The position numbers were made by a program, and so were the translations under genes. From positions 62,001 to 126,000 of the forward strand of contig NZ_VIRM01000008.1 in assembly GCF_006874475.1 (NCBI RefSeq): 64,000 nt of DNA, read 5' to 3'. The stretch comes from Microbispora hainanensis. Lineage in GTDB: Bacteria; Actinomycetota; Actinomycetes; Streptosporangiales; Streptosporangiaceae. This document shows positions 35,885-43,137 of this stretch, piece after piece. The notes under the pieces are model-generated. The model did not search any database. It had not been told where the DNA came from and was given only the letters and a program-made list of their open reading frames with translations. The first letter of the stretch is position 1, and every line of letters starts with the position of its first letter.

Positions 35885-36032
35885 TACTCGCTGAACACGG
35901 TCACCCCAAGCCGTGACATCGGGATCGGAGGGGCCAAGGCGCTTTTCCGGTCCCGGGAGGCGAGGGGGACCTGCCGCGTACGGAGGTGAGCCGGCGCATA
36001 TCGTCGTGTCCGAGGAGCAGGAAGGCCAGGAC

Positions 36033-36767
36033 ATGAAGATCGCCGTCATCGGGGGAACCGGCCTCATCGGATCCCGGCTGGTCAGGATTCTGAACGCGCG
36101 CGGGCACGAGGCGGTGCCCCATTCGAGGTCCACCGGCGTGGACCTGCTCACCGGCCAGGGCCTGCCCGAGGCGCTGGCAGGCGCCGACGTGGTCGTCAAC
36201 CTGACCAAGCCGCAGCGCTTCGACGACGCCTCGCCCGCCTTCTTCCGCAGGACGATGGACACCCTGCTGACCGGCGCCGAGGCGGCCGGCGTCGGGCACG
36301 TGGTCATCCTGTCGATCGTGGGCGCCGATCTGGTGCCCGGCCTGGTCTACTACCAGGCGAAGGTGCTGCAGGAGGACCTGCTCAAGGCGGGCCCGGTGCC
36401 CTACTCGATCGTGCGTTCCACGCAGTTCTTCGAGTTCGTCGACACGGTGCTGTCCTGGACCTCCGGCGAGCACACCGTCCGCCTGCCCTCCACTCTCATG
36501 CAGCCCATGGCGGCCGACGACGTCGCCCGGGCCGTGGCCGACGTCAGCGTGGGCGTCCCGCTGGGCGGCACCCTCGACATCGCGGGCCCCGAGGTCTTCG
36601 CGCTCGACGAGCTGGGCAGGATCACCCTCGCCGCCCGCGGCGACCACCGTACGGTCGTCACCGACGACGGCGCGGGCATGTACGCGGCGGCGCCGGGCCG
36701 CGCCCTCCTTGCCAAGGACGGCGCCGTCATCGCCACGACCACCTATCGGGAGTGGCTCGCGCGCTGA
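36033..36767 (+). CDS. NmrA-like SDR/NAD(P)-binding protein
   Basis: A 244-aa atypical SDR. It begins MKIAVIGGTGLIGSRLVRIL (Rossmann G-x-x-G-x-x-G) and contains VPYSIVRSTQFFEF, a signature of the NmrA/NAD(P)-binding family. A paralogue lies at 38203. GGAGCAGGAAGG precedes the ATG. The reaction is unknown; such proteins can be reductases or redox sensors. Confidence 0.85.
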   Translation: MKIAVIGGTGLIGSRLVRILNARGHEAVPHSRSTGVDLLTGQGLPEALAGADVVVNLTKPQRFDDASPAFFRRTMDTLLTGAEAAGVGHVVILSIVGADLVPGLVYYQAKVLQEDLLKAGPVPYSIVRSTQFFEFVDTVLSWTSGEHTVRLPSTLMQPMAADDVARAVADVSVGVPLGGTLDIAGPEVFALDELGRITLAARGDHRTVVTDDGAGMYAAAPGRALLAKDGAVIATTTYREWLAR

Positions 36768-36795: not shown

Positions 36796-36826
36796 TGTCA
36801 CAGATCGAATACTCTGCCCTGTCTTC
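36796..36826 (+). promoter_or_regulatory. ECF-type promoter candidate upstream of ltrA-like gene
   Basis: TGTCACA (36796) and GTCTTC (36821) with an 18-base gap. The pattern recurs at 38122, 40863 and, on the other strand, 43137. This copy is the most divergent of the four in the spacer. Confidence 0.4.
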
Positions 36827-36863
36827 GAGGCGACCGTACGTTGCCAGCGACAGGAGCAGGACC

Positions 36864-38108
36864 TTGCCACCATCAGGCACCACGATCCGGATCCGGGTCC
36901 GGATGAGCGCCCGTGCCATCGACGAGCCGCACCGCGTTTCGAGTCAGCTGGAGCTGCTGTTCGACCTCACCTTCGTGGTCGCGGTCGCGGCCGTCACCGC
37001 GCAGTTCGCCCACGACATCGCCGAGGGTCACGGCCTTGCCGGGCTTGTGCCGTTCCTCCAGGTGTTCTTCGCGATCTGGTGGGCGTGGATGAACTTCACG
37101 TGGTTCGCCTCGTCCTACGACACCGACGACGTCGCCTACCGGCTGTTGACAATGGTGCAGATGGCCGGCGTGCTGGTGCTCGCCGCCGGGGTGCCGGCCG
37201 CGGCGAGCCGCTCCGAATATGGCGTCATCACCCTGGGTTACCTCGTGATGAGGATCGGCCTCGTCGCCCAATGGCTGCGGGCCGGTCTCGAAGACCCGGC
37301 GCGGCGGCGCACCGCGTTCCGCTACGCCGGTGGCATCGCCGCCCTGCAGCTGGGCTGGCTGTCGCGGCTCGTCCTCGTGGAGACGGGAGTGCTGCCCTCG
37401 TCCTCCGGCCTGCCGTACTTCGTCTGCCTGGCCGCCCTGGAACTCGCCGTGCCGTGGTGGGCGGAGCGGGCCAGGGCCACCAACTGGCACCCGCACCACA
37501 TCGCCGAGCGGTACGGCCTGTTCACGATCATCCTGCTCGGGGAGAGCGTGCTGGCCGCGAGCAGAGGGGTCGGACGAGCACTGGAGGCGGACGCCGTCGG
37601 CGGCTCCTTCGTCGTGATCGCCATCGCCGGTCTCATCCTGCTGTTCGCTCTGTGGTGGCTCTATTTCCTCGGGCCTGCCGGGGACGGTCTCACCGACCGC
37701 CGCCATCGGTCCTACCTGTGGGGATATGGCCACTACGGAATTTTCGCGGCCCTGGCGGCCCTCGGCGCCGGGCTCGAGGTGGCCGTGGAGCAGAACGGGC
37801 ACGGCCTCGCGGCGTCGTCGCCGGCACTCGGCTACGCGGTCGCCGTCCCGGTAGGGGTCTGTCTCGCCCTGCTGTGGGCGGTGCACGTGCTCGTCGTCCG
37901 AGAGCGCGTCATGTCCCCCGCCGCGGTTGTGGCGTCCATCGTCATCGTCCTGTCGGTGCCGCTCGCGACGCCCTGGATCGGCGTGGCCGGCACGGTCGCG
38001 GCCATCGCGGCCGTCTGCGTCGTGCTGGTCGCGGTCACGATCTGGACGGCGGCCCTCAGGTCCCGCTCGCGTGACATGAGTCACGTGGCCGGTGACGAAT
38101 CGAATTGA
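36864..38108 (+). CDS. ltrA: Low temperature requirement protein A (LtrA) family
   Basis: A 414-aa polytopic membrane protein of about ten to eleven helices. The LtrA pattern VSSQLELLFDLTFVVAVAAV at the start, then FFAIWWAWMNFTWFASSYDT, and WWLYFL later identify the family. The role of LtrA in bacteria is poorly known. The TTG at 36864 has AGGAG 7 bases upstream; an ATG at 36903 is the main alternative. It lies between the two NmrA-like genes. Confidence 0.85.
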   Translation: MPPSGTTIRIRVRMSARAIDEPHRVSSQLELLFDLTFVVAVAAVTAQFAHDIAEGHGLAGLVPFLQVFFAIWWAWMNFTWFASSYDTDDVAYRLLTMVQMAGVLVLAAGVPAAASRSEYGVITLGYLVMRIGLVAQWLRAGLEDPARRRTAFRYAGGIAALQLGWLSRLVLVETGVLPSSSGLPYFVCLAALELAVPWWAERARATNWHPHHIAERYGLFTIILLGESVLAASRGVGRALEADAVGGSFVVIAIAGLILLFALWWLYFLGPAGDGLTDRRHRSYLWGYGHYGIFAALAALGAGLEVAVEQNGHGLAASSPALGYAVAVPVGVCLALLWAVHVLVVRERVMSPAAVVASIVIVLSVPLATPWIGVAGTVAAIAAVCVVLVAVTIWTAALRSRSRDMSHVAGDESN

Positions 38109-38121
38109 ACTTCGCCGCCGC

Positions 38122-38151
38122 CGTCACAACCCCGGAGGCTGTCCGGTCTTA
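38122..38151 (+). promoter_or_regulatory. ECF-type promoter candidate upstream of second NmrA-like gene
   Basis: CGTCACA (38122) then GTCTTA (38146), gap 17, with GGAGGCTGTC in the spacer. Nearly the same 30 bases occur at 40863-40892. It starts 14 bases after the ltrA stop and 51 bases before the next ATG. Confidence 0.55.
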
Positions 38152-38202
38152 GCTGGCGACCGGGCGGCGACCAGGTGGCCCGGCGGACAGAAAGAGAGCG
38201 CG

Positions 38203-38958
38203 ATGAAGATCGTGGTTATCGGCGGCACCGGCCTGATCGGGTCGAAGCTGGTGAAGAAGCTGGGCGAGCACGGCCACGAGGCGGTGGCGGCCTCGCCGAA
38301 CACCGGCGTCAACACCCTGACCGGCGAGGGGCTGGCCGAGGTGCTGGAGGGTGCGCACGTGGTGGTCGACGTGTCGAACTCGCCGTCGTTCGAGCGGGCC
38401 GCGGTGCTGAATTTCTTCGAGACCTCCACGGGCAACCTGCTCGCGGCCGAGGCCGACGCGGGCGTGGGTCACCACGTCGCGGTATCGATCGTGGGAACCG
38501 AGCGGATGCCGGAGAACGGCTACTTCGCGGCGAAGATCGCCCAGGAGCAGCTTATCGAGAAGTCGGGCATCCCGTTCTCGCTCGTGCACTCGACCCAGTT
38601 CTTCGAGTTCGCCCGCGGCATCGCGGACGACGCCACGGTGGACGGCAAGGTGCACATGGCGCCCGTGCTCTTCCAGCCCATTGCGGGTGACGACGTCGCC
38701 GCGGCGGTCGGCCGGGCCGCGACGGGATCGCCGCTGAACGGCAGGGTCGAGATCGCCGGGCCCGAGCAGGTCCGGATGGACGAGTTCTTCCGGAAGGCGC
38801 TGACCGCCTGGGGCGACCCGCGCGAGGTGGTCGTCGACCCGCACGCGCGTTACTTCGGCAGCGAGCTGAGCGAGCACTCCCTGGTTCCGATCGGCGACGC
38901 CTCCCTCGGCACCATTCGCTACCTCGACTGGCTCGGCGACGCCGCCACCGGCAAGTAG
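38203..38958 (+). CDS. NmrA-like SDR/NAD(P)-binding protein (paralogue)
   Basis: A 251-aa protein beginning MKIVVIGGTGLIGSKLVKKL, closely related to the 36033 product (both have STQFFEF). NAD(P)-binding Rossmann fold without a clear SDR catalytic Tyr-x3-Lys. Its promoter carries the TGTCAC/GTCT pattern typical of ECF41-group sigma targets, which are often such oxidoreductases. Confidence 0.85.
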   Translation: MKIVVIGGTGLIGSKLVKKLGEHGHEAVAASPNTGVNTLTGEGLAEVLEGAHVVVDVSNSPSFERAAVLNFFETSTGNLLAAEADAGVGHHVAVSIVGTERMPENGYFAAKIAQEQLIEKSGIPFSLVHSTQFFEFARGIADDATVDGKVHMAPVLFQPIAGDDVAAAVGRAATGSPLNGRVEIAGPEQVRMDEFFRKALTAWGDPREVVVDPHARYFGSELSEHSLVPIGDASLGTIRYLDWLGDAATGK

Positions 38959-39123
38959 GCCGGCGAGGCCGTTCATCCCCCGGGCGCGTACGCGATGACC
39001 ACCGTCACCGGCATGGCCGCGCCGGTGTCCGCCCTCGCCGCGGGCCCGCGGCGCGCGGGTCGGCGCGGCCATCGCGTCCCGCCCCGGCCGGGCCGTCCCC
39101 CCCACGACACGGAGAGAAGAACG

Positions 39124-39354
39124 ATGATCGCTCCTGGCGACGACAACGAATTCCTGCACGAGCTCGAAATCGAGGTCGAGGCGGAGGTGGTCCAGGTCGA
39201 GCTCAGCCGTCCCGAGGACGCCGCCGACCTGCCGGTCACCGAGTGGCTGTTCGACCCGGCGGACGCCGAGCGCGAGGAAATCGGCCTGCGGGGTCTGCTC
39301 GCCGCGGTCGAGGTGCTGGAGGACGACCTCCGGCCCGGCGACCCCGCCGCGTAG
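39124..39354 (+). CDS. Small acidic protein, unknown
   Basis: A 76-aa strongly acidic protein (MIAPGDDNEFLHELEIEVEA then EVVQVELSRPEDAADLPVTE). The ribosome site GAGAGAAGA lies just before the ATG. It has no cysteine and no membrane segment. It sits between the NmrA-like gene and the convergent P450. It could be a small protein partner or a peptide precursor, but no modifying enzyme is adjacent. Confidence 0.5.
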   Translation: MIAPGDDNEFLHELEIEVEAEVVQVELSRPEDAADLPVTEWLFDPADAEREEIGLRGLLAAVEVLEDDLRPGDPAA

Positions 39355-39465
39355 CAGGGCCGCGGACTGACGGGCGACACCGGCGGCCGGCAGTTCTTCC
39401 AGTTCGGCGAGGTCGCCGGTCTGCGGAGAGGAACGTCCGTACGAGGCGCCGGTGCCCGGTCGTGC

Positions 39466-40737
39466 TCACCCGGGTGCGGCGGCCGGCGGCGAGGTGGTCA
39501 CGGGCGCCGAGGTGACGTGCAGGGCGACCGGCCGGAGGACCAGGCCGTCGGTCCAGGCCACCGACTCGGGCGAACCGGTCAGGCGGAGCGCGGGACGGCG
39601 GGTGACCAGAGCTCTGACGGCCTCGGTGAGCTCGACCCTGGCGAGACTGGCGGCCAGGCAGCGGTGCGCGCCATAACCGAACGCCACATGCGGGTTGGGC
39701 GGGTGGTCGGTGAAACGGTGGATGTCGAACCGGCCGGGGTCGGGGAACGCCTCCGGGTCGTGGTTGGCCGCGTTGAGGTTCGGCATGACGACCGTCCCCG
39801 CGCGCAGCGAGCCGCCGGGCAGGTCAGTGTCCTCGGTGATGCGGCGCATGAAGGCGCTGGCGGGCGGCCCGTCGAAGCGCAGGACCTCCTCGACGGCGAC
39901 GGCCGTCAGGCTCGGGTCCGCGACCAGCTCGTCCCACTGGCGTGGGTGGAGGAGCAGCCGGAACACGCCACGCGCGATCATCGAAGCGGTCGTCTCATAA
40001 CCGGCCGTGATCAGTGAGAAGACCGTGTTGACCAGCTCGCCCTCCGTCAGCCGGTCGTCGGCGTCCCTGGCCTGGATGAGCAGGTCGATGAGGTCGTCGC
40101 CGGGCGAACGGCGATGCTGGGCGACCAGCTCGGCGGCGTAGGCCAAGAAGTCGCCGTAGCCCTCGTAGCGCGCCTGCTCGGTGGCCGTCGAGGTGGTCAG
40201 GAACATGTCCGTCCACTGGACGAACCGCTCGTAGTCGTCCACCGGCACGCCGAGCATCTCGCAGATGACGTGGGCCGGCAGCCGCAGCGCGTAATCCTCG
40301 ACCAGCTCGAAGCGGTCGCCCAGGCCGTCGAGGAGATCGCCGGCGATCGCCGCGATGCGCGGACGCCACGGCTCTGTCTGGCGCGGGGTGAAGGTGCCCT
40401 GCATGATCCGCCGGTAGCGCGTGTGCTCCGGCGGATCCTGGTTGATCAGCGCGTCCGGGTCGTCGTCGATGCCGACGCCGCTCACGAAGCGCGGCAGTCC
40501 GGGAAGGCGCAGGTTGCGGCTGGACGTGGGCGAGGCCAGCAGGGCCCGGACGTCCTCATATCGGACGGCCATCGGGACGCGGTCGCCGCTGGGCATGGTC
40601 GCCGGATCCAGCGGCCCGCACTCGCGTCTGCGGGCGAACTCCGGTGGTGGCGTGCCCAGCGGACCCGGCACGATATCCGGCCCTATGACGGGCTCGGCGG
40701 TCGGCTCGGTCCCGTTCGGATCCAGCTCGGCGGTCAC
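39466..40737 (-). CDS. Cytochrome P450
   Basis: A 423-aa soluble bacterial P450. I-helix AGYETTASM (Glu before Thr-Thr), K-helix EEVLRF with later Arg, and heme ligand loop FGYGAHRCLAASLARVEL (Cys about residue 372). The GTG at 40737 is used. It is divergent from the ferritin-like gene at 41020, and the 282-base gap between them holds an ECF-like promoter reading toward the latter. Substrate unknown; a role with the ferritin-like protein in one pathway is possible. Confidence 0.92.
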   Translation of the reverse strand: MTAELDPNGTEPTAEPVIGPDIVPGPLGTPPPEFARRRECGPLDPATMPSGDRVPMAVRYEDVRALLASPTSSRNLRLPGLPRFVSGVGIDDDPDALINQDPPEHTRYRRIMQGTFTPRQTEPWRPRIAAIAGDLLDGLGDRFELVEDYALRLPAHVICEMLGVPVDDYERFVQWTDMFLTTSTATEQARYEGYGDFLAYAAELVAQHRRSPGDDLIDLLIQARDADDRLTEGELVNTVFSLITAGYETTASMIARGVFRLLLHPRQWDELVADPSLTAVAVEEVLRFDGPPASAFMRRITEDTDLPGGSLRAGTVVMPNLNAANHDPEAFPDPGRFDIHRFTDHPPNPHVAFGYGAHRCLAASLARVELTEAVRALVTRRPALRLTGSPESVAWTDGLVLRPVALHVTSAPVTTSPPAAAPG

Positions 40738-40862
40738 TGCAACCCCTTCCGGTCCGGGTCGCCCGGGGTGCGGCCTACGCGGAACGTACGAAATGTGGCA
40801 CGGTCCGTCAACGGGTCGATCGGATGCGGAGTTGTGTGGATCGCGCGGAGACTCCCGGCGGC

Positions 40863-40892
40863 TGTCACAAGCCCGGTGGCTGTCCGGTCTTA
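40863..40892 (+). promoter_or_regulatory. ECF-type promoter candidate upstream of ferritin-like gene
   Basis: TGTCACA (40863) then GTCTTA (40887), gap 17, spacer GGTGGCTGTC. It matches 38122-38151 at most positions. Confidence 0.55.
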
Positions 40893-40957
40893 CCGTGCGA
40901 CCGGCCGGCACGAGGGGTTCGACCATCGCTCCTGCCCTGAGCCGCCGGGCGGTCGTC

Positions 40958-41009
40958 GACGCGAACAGCATGGTCGCCGGAGGCGACGCGAACAGCACGG
41001 TCGCCGGAG
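40958..41009. repeat. Two 25-bp tandem units in the 5' leader of the ferritin-like gene
   Basis: GACGCGAACAGCA-T/C-GGTCGCCGGAG occurs at 40958-40982 and 40985-41009, differing at one base, with a period of 27. It lies between the promoter and the TTG start at 41020, so it would be in the transcript. Confidence 0.75.
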
Positions 41010-41019
41010 AGGTAGGACT

Positions 41020-42084
41020 TTGACGAAGGAATCGGAACCGCAGGGAACCGTCGCCGCGCCCGGGCCGGCGCCGATCGACACCCTCGACAGCCTGCGTGAG
41101 CACCTTCAGTGGGCGGTCGAACTGGAACACGCGACGTTGCCTCCATACCTGTGCGCGCTGTACTCCCTGGATCCTGAGCGCAACCCTGAGGCCGTGGAGG
41201 TGGTGGGCAGCGTCTTCGCCGAGGAGATGCTGCACCTGGCGCTGGCCGCGAACCTGCTCAACGCCGTCGGCGGCCGGCCGCGCCTCGACGCGCCGGAGAT
41301 GTTGCCGCCGTACCCCCGGCGGCTGCCCCACAGCGATCTGGAGCTGTCGTTGCTCCCGTTCGGCCCGCAGGCCCTGGAGATGTTCCTGCGCCTGGAACGG
41401 CCGGCCCCGCCCGGCGCCCCGGCGGAGGGCGACGGCTACGAGACGATCGGGCAGTTCTACGCCGCGATCGAGCAGGGCCTGCGCCACCTGTGCGAGCGGC
41501 TCGGCGAGCGGGAGGTCTTCTGCGGCGACCCCGCACGGCAGGTGAGCGGCGGTCATTTCCGGCACACCGCGGGGTGGTTGTTCGCGGTGGAGGATCTGGA
41601 GTCGGCGCTGGGGGCGCTGAAGGAGATCGTCGAGCAGGGCGAGGGCACGGCCCGGGGCGAGGTCTGGGACGGCGACCAGGATGTCTTCCATCCCGATCGG
41701 GACGAGGTCGCCCACTACTACCGCTTCCGGGAGCTCCAGCTCGGCCGGCGTTACCGGCGCGGCGACACCCCGCAGTCCGGGCCGACCGGCGAGCCGGTCT
41801 CGGTGGACCCGGCCGCCGTACGCCCGATGCGCCCCAATCCGCGGCTGTCCGATCACGCGCCGGGCAGCGCCATCCGCACGGCGCAGGACGAGTTCAACCG
41901 CACCTACTGCATGCTGTTGAACCAGCTGGAGCAGGCCTTCGACGGCGAGCCGAAACTGCTCGGGGCCGCCGTCGGCACGATGTACGCGGTCAAGGCCCAG
42001 GCGGACGCCCTGCTGCTGATGCCCGACGGGGACGGCACCACGGCCGGCCCCACCTTCGCATACGTGCCGCCCGAGTCACGCTGA
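41020..42084 (+). CDS. Ferritin-like protein (PF12902-type; VioB/RebD C-terminal-like)
   Basis: A 354-aa protein with a ferritin-like four-helix region near the N-terminus (LREHLQWAVELEHATLPPYL, then FAEEMLHLALAANLLNAVGG). It has E-x(n)-E and E-x-x-H spacing expected for a non-heme metal site. The same domain occurs in iminophenylpyruvate dimer synthases (VioB, RebD/StaD type), which join two amino-acid-derived imines. TTG start at 41020 with GGAGAGGTAGG upstream. No tryptophan oxidase (VioA/RebO) is nearby, so a full bisindole pathway is not shown. Confidence 0.75.
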   Translation: MTKESEPQGTVAAPGPAPIDTLDSLREHLQWAVELEHATLPPYLCALYSLDPERNPEAVEVVGSVFAEEMLHLALAANLLNAVGGRPRLDAPEMLPPYPRRLPHSDLELSLLPFGPQALEMFLRLERPAPPGAPAEGDGYETIGQFYAAIEQGLRHLCERLGEREVFCGDPARQVSGGHFRHTAGWLFAVEDLESALGALKEIVEQGEGTARGEVWDGDQDVFHPDRDEVAHYYRFRELQLGRRYRRGDTPQSGPTGEPVSVDPAAVRPMRPNPRLSDHAPGSAIRTAQDEFNRTYCMLLNQLEQAFDGEPKLLGAAVGTMYAVKAQADALLLMPDGDGTTAGPTFAYVPPESR

Positions 42085-42260
42085 CGAGCGCCTCTGCACG
42101 GCCGCGCCCACGACTGGGGAGGCAGCGCGCACATCGCTTGGCCCGGCTCATGGGTGTACGGCGGCTCGCGGCGGCCCGAGACCGCCGAGTCGGCGAAGCG
42201 GGAGCCCGGCGAGGCGAGCGGGCACGGCAAGGCAAGGCGGGCGAGGCGGGCGCCAAGGCC

Positions 42261-42292
42261 GAAGGCGGGAACCGAAGCCGGTTCCCGCCTTC
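42261..42292. terminator. Bidirectional terminator hairpin
   Basis: GAAGGCGGGAACC and GGTTCCCGCCTTC are perfect 13-bp arms around GAAGCC. It lies between the convergent ferritin-like and cupin genes. Confidence 0.7.
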
Positions 42293-42299
42293 CTCGCTC

Positions 42300-42620
42300 T
42301 CACCGAGCGGTGGTGAACAGGAACGCGCAGTCCTGTACGGCCTCCATGCGGTGGCGGCGTTCCGGCATGACCAGCAGGTCGCCGGGCTGCCCTTCCCACA
42401 TGTCGCGCCCGGCGACGAGCCGCAGCCGCCCGTGCAGCACGTGCACGGTGACCTCACCGGGATGCTCGTGGATGTGCTCGCCCTGCCGCAGAGCCATGAG
42501 GGTCTGCCGCAGCGAACGGTCACACCCGCCGTGCACGGTGGTGGCGATGCGACCGGTGTCCGCGGCGCGGGCGAGCGCGAGCAGGTCACGGGCGAGCGCG
42601 GCCAGTGAGACCCTGGTCAT
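42300..42620 (-). CDS. Small cupin-domain protein
   Basis: A 106-aa single cupin: HIHEHPGEVTVHVLHGRLRL gives motif 1 (H-x-H, Glu, Gly) and PGDLLVMPERRHRMEA motif 2 with its His. It probably binds one metal. The start overlaps the stop of the 42617 cupin (ATGA), so both are made together. Role unknown. Confidence 0.8.
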   Translation of the reverse strand: MTRVSLAALARDLLALARAADTGRIATTVHGGCDRSLRQTLMALRQGEHIHEHPGEVTVHVLHGRLRLVAGRDMWEGQPGDLLVMPERRHRMEAVQDCAFLFTTAR

Positions 42621-43057
42621 GACCGCGGCGCCCGCCGGTCTCTCCGGGCTTCCAGTTCCTCCGGGCTGACCACGGTCAACATCGGCTGCCCGGGTGCGCA
42701 GAACATCGTCACGACGAACGCCGACTCCTCGTCGGCGAGGTGGTTGCCGTCCTGGTAGTGGATCACGTCCCCGCCGGGCTCCCAGAACGTCTCACCGGCC
42801 CGGACGACCCGTGCGGGCTCGCCCTCGAGTTCGAAGTCGATGGCTCCCTTGATCACGTACCCGTACGCGGGCCCGGAGTGCCGGTGCGGGGGCGCGCCAG
42901 GGCTGTTCGGCGGCAACGTGACCAGGATCGTCATCGCCTCGGCCCCCTCCGGCGCGAGCGGGGCCCCCGGCACGGAGCCCACCAGGTCGATCTTCGGCGG
43001 CGGGCCGCTCTTGTCGGCGTTGTCCAGGTGGTGGACGTGCGCGTGATCGGTGCTCAT
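42617..43057 (-). CDS. Cupin-domain protein
   Basis: A 146-aa cupin: PPHRHSGPAYGYVIKGAIDF (motif 1) and EPGGDVIHYQDGNHLA (motif 2). The N-terminal stretch HAHVHHLD is His-rich. AAGGAA lies 7 bases before the ATG at 43057. It is the first gene of the cupin pair and is preceded by a TGTCAC/GTCT promoter, linking it to the other genes with that pattern. Confidence 0.82.
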   Translation of the reverse strand: MSTDHAHVHHLDNADKSGPPPKIDLVGSVPGAPLAPEGAEAMTILVTLPPNSPGAPPHRHSGPAYGYVIKGAIDFELEGEPARVVRAGETFWEPGGDVIHYQDGNHLADEESAFVVTMFCAPGQPMLTVVSPEELEARRDRRAPRS

Positions 43058-43107
43058 CGGCTTTCCTTCGTGAGACGGTGGCCGGCTCGATCCGGCCGTA
43101 CACCAGC

Positions 43108-43137
43108 TCAGACAAGACAGCCTCCCGATGCGTGACA
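43108..43137 (-). promoter_or_regulatory. ECF-type promoter candidate upstream of the cupin pair
   Basis: On the minus strand TGTCACG (43137-43131) and GTCT (43113-43110) have a 17-base gap with GGAGGCTGTC in the spacer, as at 38122. Transcription would start about 45 bases before the cupin ATG. Confidence 0.55.

Follow-up and report, generated by a model that had tools for sequence, protein, structure and literature searches.

According to the available parts of one study (PMC3426412), the promoters mapped for sigma factors of the ECF41 type (ECF, extracytoplasmic function) combine a TGTCACA -35 element with a CGTC or TGTT -10 box across a spacer of 16 ± 1 bases, the box mapped in Bacillus licheniformis being TGTT, and Streptomyces coelicolor has 13 such factors. 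The same parts report that Ecf41Bli-204 and Ecf41Rsp-206, which are dead core versions of the proteins plus 37 residues, have about 20-fold and 120-fold activity over the full-length factors, and that Ecf41Bli-192 is less active than Ecf41Bli-204, so the exact end of the truncation matters. Here we analyze a stretch of 64,000 nucleotides from Microbispora hainanensis (the window, C230:62001-126000 of an 8.72 Mb genome, G000), in which four sites of this kind stand ahead of ltrA, an oxidoreductase gene (NmrA2), a ferritin-like gene and a pair of cupin genes. What ties such genes together? We consider it probable that all four serve as promoters of a single ECF41-type regulon, and that the sigma factor reading them is most likely a full-length, SnoaL-fused ECF41 protein encoded at C227:22448-23353.

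The four sites are as follows.

36796..36824, + strand: predicted ECF41-type promoter of ltrA, TGTCACAGATCGAATACTCTGCCCTGTCT; TGTCACA-N17-TGTCT with inner CTGCC
38122..38149, + strand: predicted ECF41-type promoter of NmrA2, CGTCACAACCCCGGAGGCTGTCCGGTCT; CGTCACA-N16-GGTCT with inner CTGTC
40863..40890, + strand: predicted ECF41-type promoter of the ferritin-like gene, TGTCACAAGCCCGGTGGCTGTCCGGTCT; TGTCACA-N16-GGTCT with inner CTGTC
43110..43137, - strand: predicted ECF41-type promoter of the two-cupin operon, TGTCACGCATCGGGAGGCTGTCTTGTCT; TGTCACG-N16-TGTCT with inner CTGTC

The original prediction had described a shared TGTCAC[A/G], a gap of 17-18 bases, GTCT, and a GG-A/T-GGCTGTC block in three of the spacers. 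Read directly, the sites carry the first element at 36796, 40863 and 43137, but 38122 reads CGTCACA, so the TGTCAC noted there was off by its first base; TGTCACA is exact at 36796 and 40863 and one base off at 43137 and 38122. The spacer block is present at 38122, 40863 and 43137, as described, and the gap between heptamer and GTCT is indeed 18 at 36796 and 17 at the other three, which corresponds to heptamer-to-KGTC spacers of 17 and 16, within the ECF41 range. In all four sites the -10 is GTC preceded by G or T, as opposed to the consensus C. The proposed likeness to ECF41 promoters holds for the -35, the 16/17 spacing and the GTC, all of which agree with the mapped examples (PMC3426412, in the parts available), and the pairing of sites with ltrA, NmrA2, the ferritin-like gene and cupin A-cupin B was borne out, with distances from GTCT to the start codon of 39, 53, 129 and 52 nt, respectively, taking TTG at 36864 (ltrA) and TTG at 41020 (ferritin-like) as starts. 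Past the -10, a second block (TAGCTGGCGACCGG or similar; 38150-38165, 40891-40906 and 43109-43094) is kept across non-orthologous promoters of the set; together with the -10 it makes an inverted repeat, CCGGTC-N9-GACCGG, in the promoters of NmrA2 and the ferritin-like gene. Within its long 5' leader, at window positions 40957-41009, the ferritin-like gene also has a direct repeat, nearly perfect and about 26 bases long, cgacgcgaacagca-t/c-ggtcgccggag.

The pattern TGTCACN{16,20}GTCT occurs three times in the window against 0.43 expected, a count reached in 1 of 100 shuffles. A genome scan for the full motif, which had been proposed, returned the window copies as the best (0, 0 and 1 mismatches); allowing up to three mismatches it gave five matches in the genome, the two outside the window having 2 and 3 mismatches, against six for the reversed control. 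The comparison covered 15 genomes of the genus Microbispora, family Streptosporangiaceae, this one included. A matrix trained on 27 distinct sites of relatives, with the genome itself and its closest relative (G009) excluded, ranks the four sites top in the window (39.4, 36.6, 35.6 and 32.5; next 15.0), and in 40 synthetic windows the best score averaged 9.2 and peaked at 19.9. Since most training sites come from orthologous promoters, and one (from G003) is the same as the site at 38122, the score reflects conservation and depends in part on shared descent. Within the genus, GTCACRN{8,11}CTGYCNNGTCY has 48 matches in 13 of the 15 genomes and its reversed form five, and the version ending in GTCT matches in 92 of 200 family genomes and 37 of 68 genera, with a family-wide total, counted by hand, of 197 against 17 for the reversed pattern across the 200 genomes. 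A spacing control with one extra base between -35 and spacer block gave 64 matches at up to two mismatches against 68 for its own control, with no perfect match in the genome and none in the window.

In five promoters compared across 6-10 genomes each, conservation is 0.94-0.98 for the -35 heptamer, 0.90-0.97 for CTGTC and 0.96-1.00 for GTCT, against 0.48-0.65 upstream and 0.78-0.99 in the next 15 bases downstream; most compared rows were found through the motif, so the values for motif columns are inflated. NmrA2 is free of this bias, its orthologues having come from a protein search (13 of the 15 genomes, E <= 1e-70); all 13 are preceded by a site, its -35 beginning 80-92 nt ahead of the start codon, with the variants GTCA at the end of the G011 site and GCCATC in place of GCTGTC in M. 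oryzae (G006). Nine of ten ltrA orthologues inspected have their own upstream site, those of M. amethystogenes (G001), M. bryophytorum (G002), M. oryzae and G014 being matched by looser patterns only; in the G009 stretch the ferritin-like gene is absent together with its site. Several relatives have the NmrA2, cupin, small acidic and ferritin-like genes in series behind a single site, so an own site is not universal for each gene. At G003:C11:482205-482231 (L110) a site precedes a methyltransferase gene (PF08241), with small acidic and ferritin-like homologues after it; this locus is a second copy of part of the regulon.

Which sigma factor would read these promoters? A TIGR02957 search of the genome yields 18 strong ECF41-type matches, nine proteins above the cut-off and nine at 199-319 bits. 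The prediction had placed the sigma factor outside the window, and indeed none of the 50 TIGR02957 matches listed lies on C230; a sigma gene in the window or on its contig was rejected, all 50 listed matches being elsewhere, and near the window cluster we find a sigma relic and no intact ECF41. The protein encoded at C227:22448-23353 scores 355.8 bits (cut-off 323.25) and consists of sigma2, a WLPEP linker, sigma4 and a SnoaL-like extension with DGGG at 216 and NPAKI, a variant of NPDKL, at 291; its Pfam SnoaL_2 match, at 17.0 bits, is under the cut-off of 27. Six exact TGTCACA-N13-20-GTCT sites exist in the genome, and one of those outside the window, at C227:21356 (TGTCACAGATGACGTTTCTGTCCTGTCT), precedes a short-chain dehydrogenase/reductase (SDR) gene (PF00106, COE-type) that adjoins this very ECF41 gene. 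The earlier suggestion of one regulon is thereby supported by comparative evidence: the SDR gene next to the C227 sigma gene has this promoter too, and orthologues of that sigma gene sit inside the cluster in other genera.

The C227 factor also co-occurs with NmrA2 across the genus. Its orthologue is found in 13 of the 15 genomes (E <= 1e-95), and the two that lack it, G012 and G013, are the two that lack NmrA2, a coincidence with a probability of 1/105 under independence with phylogeny ignored, G012 being 92% complete in 810 contigs. An SDR gene with a site is present at 8 of the 13 orthologue loci, three of these sites (G001, G007 and G014) having CCGTC or TCGTC instead of CTGTC. In M. oryzae the sigma gene is adjoined by ltrA, with a loose site, and by the small and ferritin-like genes, with a site; in G008 ltrA adjoins the sigma gene and a site stands before NmrA2; in M. 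corallina (G004) a site lies just downstream of the sigma gene. Within about 1.5 kb of the sigma orthologue there is no site in G005 and one loose match lacking CTGTC in G011. A TGTCACA...CGTCT site directly ahead of another ECF41 gene, on C198, differs in its spacer and is assigned to the C198 paralogue.

Other genera bring sigma gene and targets together. Among 18 regions, which were chosen for holding sites and are not a random sample, 12 regions in seven genera encode a full-length ECF41 protein (61-80% identity), and 11 of these 12 also hold LtrA, NmrA2, ferritin-like or cupin homologues. The order at L199 is site-LtrA, ECF41, site-NmrA2, ferritin-like, cupins-site; this is the window cluster with the sigma gene in place. 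A separate ECF41-derived protein, with SnoaL-like motifs and no adjoining sigma4, occurs in 10 of the 18 regions.

L200-L204, L207, L208 and L213-L215, in the same cluster: sigma4-less ECF41-derived proteins (degenerate sigma2 plus SnoaL, or SnoaL alone)

In Pfam searches, three of four such proteins matched SnoaL_2 together with a weak sigma2 under the cut-off, and had no sigma4; the fourth matched SnoaL_2 below the cut-off and had no sigma regions. The genes in L200 and L213 are possibly frameshifted. A regulon-type site precedes the gene for this protein in L200-L204, which are five genomes of a single genus, and one might speculate that it acts in trans as a feedback inhibitor. A search at E <= 1e-20 found no standalone SnoaL or sigma2-SnoaL partner in the M. 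hainanensis genome, and its matches in 3 of the 15 genus genomes were confined to the C-terminal part, in reading frames of 320-534 aa.

If the one-regulon reading is right, the C227 sigma factor would recognize TGTCACA as the -35, an extended CTGTC-like spacer element and a G/TGTCT -10. Its targets would be five units, four of them in the window (ltrA, NmrA2 with the small acidic gene, the ferritin-like gene and the cupin pair) and the fifth the SDR gene next to the sigma gene itself. Presumably the NTF2/SnoaL-like domain fused to the sigma factor acts as a direct gate that responds to a small molecule, and the regulon may have a redox or detoxification role. A SnoaL-less paralogue once present in the window would have decayed while the promoters were retained.

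Several observations weigh against this reading. The first base of the -10 is G or T instead of the consensus C, even if the mapped B. licheniformis box is also non-C. ECF41 factors were concluded to control generally a single gene or operon (PMC3426412, in the parts available); an ECF41 factor is named in Azospirillum brasilense, for which a paper on motility control is cited in a review seen in part (PMC8999054), so wider ECF41 regulons are not unprecedented. The ltrA gene of G008, located downstream of NmrA2, lacks a complete site of its own, a -35-like TGTCAC running into the leader. Six of the 18 site-bearing regions in other genera are without a full-length ECF41, two of the six having partial ECF41 matches. 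No motif copy was found upstream of the C227 sigma gene with the patterns used, which leaves autoregulation unsupported, and in M. hainanensis itself the sigma gene is on another contig than the regulon cluster. Finally, about 17 other ECF41-type factors in the genome could cross-read these promoters.

This last point leads to the most serious alternative, namely that the promoters, still of ECF41 type, are read by another of the roughly 18 paralogues or by several overlapping ones, with C227 as one reader among them. We regard it as a minority view with a real but modest chance of being correct. Besides the number of paralogues, it gains from similar sites (TGTCACA or CTCACA followed by TGTC-N2-GTC) at several other ECF41 loci of the same genome, one of which (L055) likewise has T/G before GTC, and from the CTGTC element not being unique to the regulon: TGTC-N2-GTC recurs at other ECF41 loci of the genome and CTGYC-N2-GTCT across the family, so the arrangement is a wider feature of such promoters. 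On the other side, the paralogue found with the target genes in other genera is the C227 orthologue and no other, the two genus genomes without it are those without NmrA2, and G or T precedes GTC in all 27 training sites, as against CGTC at most other ECF41 loci of the genome with a recognizable site. The conserved bases might instead be an operator for a dimeric transcription factor ahead of ordinary promoters, GCTGTC-N12-GCTGTC or CCGGTC-N9-GACCGG around the -10. The direct repeat is present at 40860/40878 and at 43137, the promoters of NmrA2 and the ferritin-like gene keep the downstream GACCGG half, and conservation past the -10 almost equals that of the boxes. Set against this, there is no direct repeat at ltrA and no inverted repeat at the cupin site, what stays constant is the ECF41 -35 and -10 with the spacing typical of ECF41, and an ECF41 gene is what recurs among the target genes, no search for another recurrent regulator having been made. 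An operator of this kind is quite improbable. We give almost no weight to chance resemblance or recent repeat copies, although three sites have a long spacer block and 5' leader in common: footprints are seen in five different promoters, sites precede every NmrA2 orthologue, and the matches extend to nearly half of the family genomes. Chance resemblance was rejected on the genus and family motif counts and the matrix ranking as well as on the NmrA2 sites. One ECF41-type regulon with C227 as its likely sigma factor is the reading we prefer.

A few other sites and a repeat array are of note. A further group, GTCACACATGGAGGGGCTGTCTCGTCC (L156, L162 and L163), precedes another ECF41 gene, past which L156 has a carboxymuconolactone decarboxylase gene (PF02627), the classical arrangement. 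At G000:C223:8703-8731 (L038, L158), TGTCACACGAAAAGCGCCCTGTCTCGTCC, identical in G009, lies ahead of an alpha/beta hydrolase gene (PF00561) and is possibly a target of another ECF41 paralogue. G000:C178:34076-34230 (L028-L030) holds a short array with a 19-base step that includes GTCACTCCCAGCGGCCGGTGTC.

The genes of the window cluster are the following.

35913..36767, + strand: NmrA1, second NmrA-like gene, upstream of ltrA (PF13460)
36864..38108, + strand: ltrA, low-temperature-requirement A membrane protein (PF06772, E 1.4e-93)
38203..38958, + strand: NmrA2, NAD(P)-binding oxidoreductase/epimerase-like, COE type (PF13460, PF05368, PF01370)
39124..39354, + strand: small acidic protein, 76 aa, conserved in the cluster
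39370..39505, - strand: frameshifted remnant of a short SnoaL-less ECF41 sigma gene, overlapping the end of the P450 frame
39466..40740, - strand: cytochrome P450 frame, within the cluster (PF00067, E 1.6e-33)
41020..42084, + strand: ferritin-like protein, predicted regulon gene (PF12902, E 1e-65)
42300..42620, - strand: cupin B, second gene of the predicted cupin operon (PF07883, E 1.1e-5, 25.5 bits, just missing the curated cut-off of 27.2)
42617..43057, - strand: cupin A, predicted regulon gene (PF07883, E 1.7e-10)

The inferred TTG start of ltrA aligns with an ATG in the M. oryzae orthologue. The small acidic protein matches no Pfam family at E 0.001, and its gene is presumably co-transcribed with NmrA2. 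No motif of its own was found in the window for the P450 gene, and the matrix scan placed no site in the window ahead of NmrA1.

The remnant at 39370..39505 is a new finding: the cluster evidently once held a second, SnoaL-less ECF41 gene that has decayed in the window. It retains two blocks, 28 aa at 82% and 21 aa at 76% identity, with longer remnants in G009 and G003 and an intact orthologue in M. bryophytorum (L097:8345-9076(-)). Five genus genomes (G001, G002, G004, G006 and G013) have an intact short gene encoding sigma2, a WLPEx linker (four of five), sigma4 and a stop near the expected position of SYSDGGG; about 40 residues are retained past sigma4, and all five aligned proteins end ahead of DGGG, and the M. 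bryophytorum protein has no SnoaL match in Pfam. Pairwise dN/dS among the five genes is 0.27-0.40 over 190 codons, and they are under purifying selection. These short proteins are ECF41-derived and are not classed as full ECF41. M. oryzae has another short form (C65, L313:2255-2917(+)), 220 aa long and 51% identical to that of M. bryophytorum, which stops right past LLAADVISS, so truncation may have occurred more than once.

The short form recurs in several other genera. Of 197 related loci in named genomes, the best 80 include 25 that count as short by the rule applied, L240 (Streptomyces carpinensis) being doubtful, and the short-form genera are Streptosporangium, Nonomuraea (with [Actinomadura] parvosata), Sphaerisporangium, Planotetraspora, Jiangella, Actinoplanes and Microbispora, with three copies each in two genomes of Nonomuraea (again with [Actinomadura] parvosata). 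An LtrA, NmrA2, ferritin-like or cupin homologue lies within 4 kb of 14 of the 25. A regulon-type site lies within 4 kb of 8 of the 25 short loci against 3 of 53 others (Fisher P 0.004, relatedness ignored), a comparison that omits L235 and L243, whose frames are unclear; L243 has a site and, like L240, is doubtful as a short form. In a tree of 77 rows, 27 short rows share a single branch (100/99) with a Jiangella row whose frame is unclear; that branch lies beside a full-length Amycolatopsis row, and the enclosing clade includes the full-length C227 group (97/86); row L209, marked short through a labelling artefact, is full-length by tblastn and is not counted as short. Near short ECF41 genes of Streptosporangium carneum and Nonomuraea solani, regulon-type sites precede an alpha/beta hydrolase gene (L218:3758(-) and L225:2193(-); PF07859 for L225).

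Because its length is close to that of the hyperactive engineered truncations, lengths being compared here and not aligned positions, the short form may be permanently competent. This allows a tentative proposal, which we hold to be possible but well short of probable, that the regulon uses a split ECF41 kit: a full-length, self-gated sigma factor, a SnoaL-less paralogue permanently competent on the same promoters and, in other genera, a sigma4-less trans-inhibitor (sigma2-SnoaL or SnoaL alone) giving negative feedback. The window might then, just as tentatively, be a cluster of this kind that has lost its short sigma gene but kept the promoters whole.

With its several conserved promoters and a likely sigma factor, the predicted regulon offers a natural system for finding the ECF41 signal. 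The natural SnoaL-less paralogues allow the autoinhibition model to be tested beyond engineered cuts, and the CTGTC element and the G/T base of the -10 are candidates for promoter discrimination among some 18 paralogues per cell. In a literature search that lacked some major ECF41 papers, neither a natural SnoaL-less ECF41 nor a regulon of this kind came up.

How do these components compare with described systems? The C227 protein has the same sigma2, linker, sigma4, DGGG and SnoaL-like extension as Ecf41Bli and SigJ of Mycobacterium tuberculosis (TIGR02957); unlike those factors, its regulon cluster is unlinked from the sigma gene in its own species. The short ECF41 proteins resemble Ecf41Bli-204 and Ecf41Rsp-206 in keeping sigma2, sigma4 and about 40 residues of the extension with the rest gone, but they are natural, conserved in several genera and often beside the regulon, in contrast to the engineered truncations (PMC3426412, in the parts available). 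SigG1-RsfG (ECF56) likewise pairs a SnoaL-fused ECF factor with a separate partner encoded adjacent to it; RsfG is described, in the part of that paper available, as lacking a conserved Pfam domain (PMC7730460), whereas the sigma4-less protein here is ECF41-derived and not known to bind the sigma factor. The promoters themselves share with those of ydfG in B. licheniformis and RSP_0606 in Rhodobacter sphaeroides the TGTCACA, a spacer of about 16 nt and a GTC/GTT -10, as well as a position upstream of a COE-type gene; such a gene stands near ECF41 here too, as the SDR gene in M. hainanensis and with the ECF41 gene inside the cluster in other genera. They differ from these two in having G or T instead of the consensus C before GTC and a conserved CTGTC-like spacer element, and in serving at least five units at two loci in place of one (PMC3426412, same parts).

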